64,000 nt of DNA from Gemmatimonadaceae bacterium (lineage in GTDB: Bacteria > Gemmatimonadota > Gemmatimonadetes > Gemmatimonadales > Gemmatimonadaceae): contig DATNEW010000023.1 of assembly GCA_035606695.1 (NCBI GenBank), forward strand, positions 1 to 64,000. Reading direction: 5' to 3'. Position numbers and translations under genes: made by a program. Position 1 is the first letter of the stretch; each line of letters starts with the position of its first letter. The notes under the pieces are model-generated. The model searched no databases. It was not told where the DNA came from and was given only the letters and a program-made list of their open reading frames with translations. Positions 26,217 to 61,226 of the stretch are shown piece after piece.

Positions 26217-26352
26217 GGGGGCGGGACGCATGGGCGCATAGGCGTATGGGCGTATGGGCGCATGGAAAGCAACAAAAAAGCGACGAGCAGTCGCTCGTCG
26301 CTACCGCGTCCGGCGCCCATACGCCCATGCCCCTACACCCCCATACGCCCGC
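26217..26352. repeat. Inverted G-rich minisatellite arms flanking a terminator
   Basis: The left arm (26217-26264) is G-rich with units of GGGCGTAT and GGGCGCAT. The right arm (26312-26352) is its C-rich inverse. The core ATGGGCGTATGGGCGC (26246-26261) is perfectly inverted at 26313-26328. Each arm has four or more G-runs on one strand with short loops, so G-quadruplex formation is possible. A terminator hairpin sits at the centre. No gene is seen between 26132 and 26352. Confidence 0.65.
26274..26302 (-). terminator. Intrinsic terminator for the lipoprotein gene
   Basis: AGCGACGAGC (26279-26288) and GCTCGTCGCT (26293-26302) form a perfect 10-bp stem with an AGTC loop. On the minus strand it is followed by T6 (26279-26274). 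It lies about 50 bases after the stop of the gene at 26353. Confidence 0.85.
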
Positions 26353-52179: not shown

Positions 52180-52189
52180 GACCCCTGAG

Positions 52190-52276
52190 GTCATCCTGAG
52201 GAGCGTAGCGACGAAGGACCCCTATCCGTGGCGGTAAGGGGTCCTTTCACTTCGCTGCGCTCAGCGTCAGGATGAC
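52190..52276. repeat. Interspersed palindromic element (GTCATCC family) acting as a hairpin
   Basis: GTCATCCTGA (52190-52199) is perfectly inverted at 52267-52276. An inner pair AAGGACCCCT and AGGGGTCCTT adds another perfect 10-bp stem, and GAGCGTAGCGA pairs with the inverse of GCGCAGCG on the other side, so nearly the whole 87 bases fold back. It lies between the convergent phosphoesterase and infA genes and may stop transcription from both sides. Confidence 0.8.
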
Positions 52277-52284
52277 AGACTACT

Positions 52285-52520: not shown

Positions 52521-52550
52521 CCCGCAAGGATGAGCTAGCGCGACTGCGAT

Positions 52551-52574
52551 GGGGGTTGGGCGATGGGCGTTGGG
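52551..52574 (+). repeat. G-quadruplex-capable array, left flank of the four-helix-bundle gene
   Basis: Four G-runs (52551-52555, 52558-52560, 52565-52567, 52572-52574) with loops TT, CGAT and CGTT. This satisfies the four-run, short-loop pattern for an intramolecular G-quadruplex on the plus strand. It is the inverse of the array at 53026-53056. Confidence 0.65.
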
Positions 52575-52660
52575 CGCTAGTGATGTCGTGCGGAATGAAA
52601 TGGTAGCACACGGACGCAACGACGCGTGCAGTATCATCCGTGCGCCCTCGCCAACGTGGA

Positions 52661-53023
52661 ATGCGGGCTTTCCGCAAGATCGAAGCGTGGCAGAAAGGGA
52701 TGGATCTCATCACAGAGATCTACCGCCTCACTCGTCGGTTTCCGCGCGAAGAGTTGTTTTGCCTGACGTTTCAACTTCGCAAAGCAGCGCTACGGATTCC
52801 GTCATGCATCGCCGAAGGCACCGAGCGCGATACGGCGGCGGACCGGCGACATTTCCTCACCGTCGCTCGCGGCTCCGTCGCAGAAATTGAAACACAGCTC
52901 GAGGCGGCGGTGCGACTCGAGTACGTCGAACTCGGCGATCTCGACGACGTACTCGAATTGACCGACCACCTCGGCGGCATGCTGACCAATCTTCGACGGA
53001 ACATCCGCGACCGTCCGCTCTGA
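52661..53023 (+). CDS. Four-helix-bundle protein (S23/Avd-like, TIGR02436 type)
   Basis: A 120-residue helical protein. It has the family signature [25 protein letters not shown] at the N-terminus, then [53 protein letters not shown] in order (shown in pieces: [32 protein letters not shown]), then a last helix [15 protein letters not shown]. Family members were first seen in 23S rRNA intervening sequences and resemble Avd of diversity-generating retroelements, forming pentameric barrels that bind nucleic acid. No reverse transcriptase is nearby. ATG at 52661 is preferred over 52640. The stop abuts a C-rich array, and an inverted G-rich array lies upstream. Confidence 0.88.
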
Positions 53024-53025
53024 CG

Positions 53026-53056
53026 CCCAACGCCCAACGCCCAACGCCCAACGCCC
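53026..53056 (-). repeat. G-quadruplex-capable array, right flank of the four-helix-bundle gene
   Basis: Five CCC runs at 7-base spacing (53026, 53033, 53040, 53047, 53054) with AACG loops. On the minus strand this is GGGCGTT repeated, a textbook G3N4 quadruplex. It begins three bases after the stop of the gene at 52661-53023 and reaches to within seven bases of the next convergent stop. Confidence 0.75.
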
Positions 53057-53062
53057 AACGCG

Positions 53063-60960: not shown

Positions 60961-61176
60961 GTGAGGCCCGTGCGCGCTTCGCGCGCGCGGATGGTGTGGG
61001 CCGCGGGCCGAGGGCCGCGAGGGTGAGGCCGGCGCTCCGCGTCGATGGTGAGGCCCGCCCTGCGCGCGGATGGTGAGAGCAAACAGCGCTCTTCGCAGTT
61101 GCCTCGCGGCGCAGCCGCGGCCATCCCCTCGCGGCGCAGCCGCGGCCATCCCCTCGCGGTGCAGCCGCGGCCATCC
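60961..61176. repeat. Cluster of hairpin-forming tandem repeats
   Basis: Two repeat types lie between the receptor gene and the copper protein gene. First, GTGAGGCC begins degenerate units at 60961, 61023 and 61048, each followed by a CG-rich hairpin such as GCGCGC-TTC-GCGCGC and then GGATGGTG or GATGGTG. Second, three 25-base units at 61102-61126, 61127-61151 and 61152-61176 each contain CGCGGC-GCA-GCCGCG (one variant base in the third). No gene is seen in this 270-base gap. The hairpins may end receptor transcription. Confidence 0.8.
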
Positions 61177-61226
61177 CCCACGGTACGCATCGTGCCGCTA
61201 GCACTTCCGTCAACGCGGAGAACTCC

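Follow-up and report, generated by a model that had tools for sequence, protein, structure and literature searches.

The window, a 64,000-nucleotide stretch of DNA from a Gemmatimonadaceae genome, contains an S23/Avd-like four-helix-bundle (4HB) gene that sits inside inverted arrays of GGGCGTT-type heptamers (Table 1). An earlier note on this DNA had described a 4HB gene bracketed by inverted arrays, and the window sequence confirms this arrangement. The note placed the right array three bases past the stop codon, but the array actually starts directly at the stop (53024). The gene product is 120 aa long when translated from the ATG at 52661 and 127 aa from an alternative GTG at 52640. Read as ACGCCCA, the right arm consists of 5.6 copies, of which 4 are exact. 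The neighbors of the cassette are an IF-1 gene and a glycine-zipper gene, and the location is not a 23S rRNA gene. Beside IF-1, at 52180-52280, lies a palindromic element, TCATCCTGAGGAGCGTAGCGACGAAGGACC, together with an inverted counterpart.

Table 1. Coordinates of the cassette, its parts and a gene-less array pair in the window.
Feature	Position	Strand	Description
Left arm, G-rich heptamer array	52546..52576	+	About 4 units GGGGGTT/GGGCGAT/GGGCGTT, GCGATGGGGGTTGGGCGATGGGCGTTGGGCG; left cassette end
S23/Avd-like 4HB gene	52661..53023	+	ATG at 52661; TGA stop at 53021-53023
Right arm, inverted heptamer array	53024..53061	-	GGGCGTT on the minus strand; right cassette end
Whole inserted cassette (arm, gene, arm)	52546..53061	+	Ends located only to within tens of bases
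Gene-less inverted array pair	26224..26350	.	Octamer GGGCGTAT; terminator-like hairpin inside

The window 4HB protein was matched to PF05635 (E=3e-30, 104.9 bits, cut-off 33.8) and to the TIGR02436 four helix bundle profile (E=7e-29, 100.3 bits, cut-off 24). The match to the DGR Avd profile was weak (E=5e-6, 26.8 bits) and far under its 80-bit cut-off. The closest solved relative is 2GSC (E=3e-24), and the AlphaFold model of the window protein (pLDDT 95.9) aligns to it with a TM of 0.93. Other structure matches of the model were 2RLD, the DGR Avd 4DWL (TM 0.76), and the DGR RNP entries 8UB7/8UBE. 2GSC and 2RLD, the two nearest structures, each contain five chains, and the Xanthomonas protein is described as a toroidal homopentamer (PMC4990558). 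The dN/dS of the 4HB protein is 0.06-0.21, a range indicating that it is under purifying selection. No known catalytic domain is encoded in the cassette, and the protein fold is a four-helix bundle, not a Y1 tyrosine transposase. A recurring partner gene, including a reverse transcriptase, was absent beside the cassettes in 80 loci. The neighbors that did repeat were rejected as a conserved partner and are accounted for by accBC/carAB synteny or by ordinary families. In the predicted fold of the cassette RNA, the arms pair as a closing stem (z -6.3).

Single GGGCGTT words are at chance level in the window, with 15 found, 10.7 expected and no enrichment. Arrays are far above chance genome-wide: a three-unit pattern with ≤2 mismatches gave 254 matches, compared to 0 for the reversed control. 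The arrays are not private to the gene; they form a dispersed family across the window genome, often as gene-less inverted pairs. Many of the dispersed pairs have a terminator-like hairpin between their arrays, and some are located within coding sequences. GGGCGNT arrays are apparently within coding sequences, possibly in linkers, in L008, L012, and L034 (around 1501), and the host genes appear by eye to be mutS2-like, methionine-synthesis-like, and acyl-CoA-ligase-like. The octamer pair in Table 1 is a candidate non-autonomous relative. A TetR-like gene and a small lipoprotein-like gene flank this pair.

The window site was compared with five sister genomes of the genus (G001-G005). In each of them the IF-1 and glycine-zipper genes are adjacent, and the spacer is 81-149 bp compared to 556 bp in the window. 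Neither the 4HB gene nor the arrays are present in this spacer in any of the 5 sisters. The arm-gene-arm unit is an insertion, because all five sisters have the same adjacent neighbors without the gene or the arrays. Five parallel losses would be a much less likely account of this pattern. Matches to GGGCGNT arrays numbered 188 in the window genome; four sisters had none and the fifth had 6. There was no obvious target-site duplication or defined cut site here or at the accB-accC site described below, the empty-site spacers being too divergent to give exact ends, and no excision product was identified. Several of the genomes compared are drafts or MAGs.

The association of the gene with arms was surveyed in the genus using an arm score, obtained by reverse-complementing the right flank and aligning it locally with the left flank. 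Six genomes carry 4-9 4HB family members each. The inverted-arm score was ≥50 in 15 of 26 4HB loci and ≥34 in 21 of 26, whereas none of 28 PadR control genes reached 50. The arm unit is specific to the locus; the units include GGGCGTT, GGGCGTCA, the 13-mer CGAACCGAAAGAG, GGTAGGCCG, TTTAGGG-like repeats, and others. The 13-mer is also present elsewhere in the window genome as a gene-less inverted pair. Three armless loci (L004, L059, and L060; genes at about 1441-1887) form one group of very similar 4HB proteins from three genus genomes. The armless L004 gene is possibly a domesticated copy, perhaps with a cellular job. This gene adjoins what reads as atpA.

The cross-phylum set consisted of 80 loci picked by protein motif alone, of which 72 were usable, from about 20 phyla. 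Matched inverted arms (score ≥34) were found at 51 of the 72 homologues compared to 7 of 432 control intervals from the same loci. In a set of 95 loci, a period of 7 or 14 was found in 39 of 46 left arrays and 42 of 51 right arrays, and the median array length was 4.6 units. The arrays have a strand bias in gene orientation, with left arrays G>C by 38:6 and right arrays G<C by 45:6. For 63 loci, none of the 95 right arms matched the left arm better than the locus's own. The PadR and same-locus controls, together with the reversed patterns and arm permutation, rule out chance or a GC-rich intergenic background. Two plasmids of Calothrix brevissima (L196 and L197) have near-identical 4HB regions and were considered as a recent cassette transposition. 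This candidate was rejected; the plasmids give no evidence of cassette movement because what they share is a segment of about 3.5 kb that includes an integrase and other genes. Within this segment, from a single strain, the 4HB gene is bracketed by GGGTGTA arms.

The accB-accC site was surveyed in 60 Xanthomonadaceae genomes. The spacer is cleanly empty (3-12 bp) in about 24 of the 60 and holds an arm-4HB-arm unit (about 430-490 bp) in 15. Gene-less inverted-array hairpins are clear at this site in G056 and G041, and a third candidate, G050, is doubtful with an arm score of 20. The cassette state is scattered over the accBC tree, where the parsimony count is 11 changes and a minimum of 7 is forced by supported branches. 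The sisters G081 and G029 have accB and accC that are 98-99% identical and sequence that is identical up to the insert. Their inserts are only 65% identical and have arms of the GGGAATC and GGGATTC type. Ordinary homologous recombination could produce such differing cassettes at accB-accC. The two arms covary across species: left-right scores are 43-49 within the same type, for three main types, and 22-24 between different types. At carA-carB, a second site, the arms are GGGGACC.

In several accBC copies, the 4HB frame continues through the right arm into accC, and the 4HB gene may be translationally coupled to accC. The frame is open across the right array (ESPIPNPESH) and extends about 10 nt into accC in L230, L233, and L252. 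Palindromes resembling the element beside IF-1 in the window also occur in some accB-accC spacers (L242 and L251). It seems that small elements of several kinds enter the accB-accC spacer.

The dispersed arrays of a genome were compared to the arms of its 4HB genes. GGGAATC or GGGATTC arrays (GGGAWTC, ≥10 matches) are found in 13 of the 15 genomes with an accBC cassette and in 6 of the 45 others (Fisher p=4e-7 without phylogenetic correction). G056 has a 4HB gene with GGGCTCA arms, and its gene-less hairpin at accB-accC also consists of GGGCTCA. Arms were then compared across four genomes of one bacterial family in samples of 240-320 kb. The gene-less inverted pairs matched the arm unit of the 4HB gene in their own genome only (2, 2, 0, and 3 pairs), giving 7 on-diagonal and 0 off-diagonal pairs; G060 is weak in this test, with its pairs visible only under a looser criterion. 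The four-genome test is small and is limited to longer arrays and inverted pairs because short 14-mer matches were no more common than in the reversed-arm control. The earlier note proposed that arrays occurring equally often beside unrelated genes would count against its reading. Arrays do literally occur beside unrelated genes, but the sampled ones carry the genome's own 4HB-arm unit, a pattern that fits non-autonomous derivatives of the cassette.

We consider it likely that the arm-gene-arm unit is a one-gene mobile cassette of about 0.5 kb that is ended by the arrays, whose protein binds the arrays and whose DNA is copied by host enzymes. Genome comparison, the source of all the evidence here, makes the mobility of the cassette well supported. 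The comparisons show that otherwise conserved sites hold the whole cassette or none of it, and that its versions differ at the same site in sisters. They also show that the two arms of a cassette keep matching even as their unit differs from lineage to lineage, and that gene-less inverted pairs built from the cassette's unit are dispersed in the genome that carries it. The mobile cassette suggested in the earlier note is supported by the empty sites in all five sisters, by the matched inverted arrays that bracket homologues across phyla, and by the different cassettes at one site in sister species.

The 4HB protein probably recognizes its array ends. It would bind the arrays as single-stranded or hairpin DNA, or as their RNA. 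The bound protein, which is a five-fold ring in the closest solved relative, could hold both ends close to each other, leaving the copying or pasting of the unit to the host's replication or repair enzymes. The protein would act in cis for its own cassette and in trans for the gene-less pairs. In RNA, the arms would form a stem around the gene, resembling that of 23S rRNA intervening sequences with a gene of this family, which may render insertions inside operons tolerable.

An unlikely alternative is that the arrays came first. The host, by slippage or hairpin-templated copying, or some other element would make the pairs, and the 4HB gene would be a passenger homing into the loop. Gene-less pairs are common, including the two at accB-accC, and dispersed arrays were seen in four genomes where no 4HB was found (G035, G055, G063, and G072). 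Heptamer arrays are also slippage-prone by an argument made in a published report (PMC4692102). However, the gene and arrays are jointly absent in the five sisters at the window site and in the approximately 24 genomes with an empty accB-accC spacer, nearly every Xanthomonadaceae 4HB checked has arms, and the sampled pairs share their own genome's 4HB-arm unit.

A distinctly less probable alternative is an autoregulated unit, in which a 4HB ring on its own array RNA or DNA controls itself or the operon, and mobility is incidental and occurs via recombination. The closing RNA stem, the purifying selection on the protein, the overlap of the accBC 4HB frame with the accC start, and arms that are still matched in vertically related copies all point in this direction. 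Autoregulation leaves unexplained why gene-less pairs of the same unit are dispersed, why one site is occupied only patchily, and why there are so many host contexts. It is very improbable that the protein recognizes the G-quadruplex structure of the ends, which the earlier note had made their defining feature: both window arrays fit the G4 motif (G3+N1-7), and array oligonucleotides from Xanthomonas and Nostoc fold into G4 in vitro (PMC4692102), but the motif is in both arms at only 14 of 69 matched-arm loci, neither arm contains GGG at 7 of the 69 (for example, the AT-rich Adhaeribacter or Balneolaceae units), and L003 is bracketed by the 13-mer with few G-tracts.

The proposed mobile cassette resembles several known systems. 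The 23S rRNA intervening sequences of Leptospira and Coxiella likewise have a single PF05635 ORF, inverted ends, and a predicted closing RNA stem, and those with an S23 ORF have long been regarded as suspected remnants of a mobile element (PMC4990558). They reside within rRNA genes and are described as ending in terminal inverted repeats, whereas the cassette has tandem-array ends with a locus-specific unit, intergenic or operon sites, several copies per genome, and gene-less relatives. RAYT/REPIN systems also have dispersed extragenic inverted pairs that share the repeat flanking one gene in the same genome (PMC3116915). RAYT is an IS200/IS605-type tyrosine transposase, whereas no catalytic fold is known for the 4HB protein, and REPs are imperfect palindromes, whereas the cassette repeats are tandem heptamer arrays. 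The DGR Avd protein has the same fold as the 4HB protein, but the cassettes lack a neighboring reverse transcriptase and the Avd score is below the cut-off. PF05635 genes have been noted as Avd-like (PMC10053308).

The STRR heptamers (GGGAATC in Xanthomonas and GGGGA(C/T)T in Nostoc) are the same kind of array and often occur as inverted convergent pairs, with 70-75 such pairs per Xanthomonas genome (PMC4692102). GGGAATC, the STRR of Xanthomonas, is an arm unit of 4HB cassettes in Xanthomonadaceae. The STRR authors (Rehm et al.) leave the role of the arrays open, and the text searched links no gene to them and does not mention 4HB (PMC4692102). In the open-licence literature, we found no paper that joins this protein family to tandem arrays or describes the cassette.

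The mobile cassette joins two old puzzles, the role of S23/PF05635 proteins outside rRNA and retroelements and the origin of dispersed bacterial short tandem repeats. It predicts that the dispersed arrays derive from a one-gene cassette, as its ends and as copies lacking the gene. We put forward a broader proposal tentatively, as one that could well be right but falls somewhat short of likely. Across most phyla, there would be mobile DNA without a transposase or recombinase in which a ring-forming 4HB protein recognizes lineage-specific tandem-array ends and mobilizes its own cassette along with gene-less pairs, while an unknown copying process creates and matches new arm units. The STRRs of Xanthomonas, Nostoc, and others, as well as the 23S intervening sequences, would be its footprints. 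If array-ended DNA is mobilized without a transposase, this would be an unusual transposition route. Genes annotated as 23S_rRNA_IVP (PF05635) have been noted in cas loci and operons (PMC3936711), and the cassette may explain those in cas operons, which could be insertions rather than CRISPR parts.

The window also contains tandem repeats of another kind. Three near-perfect copies of a 25-bp unit, CCTCGCGGCGCAGCCGCGGCCATCC, are found at 61018-61178, and another 25-bp array lies just upstream.
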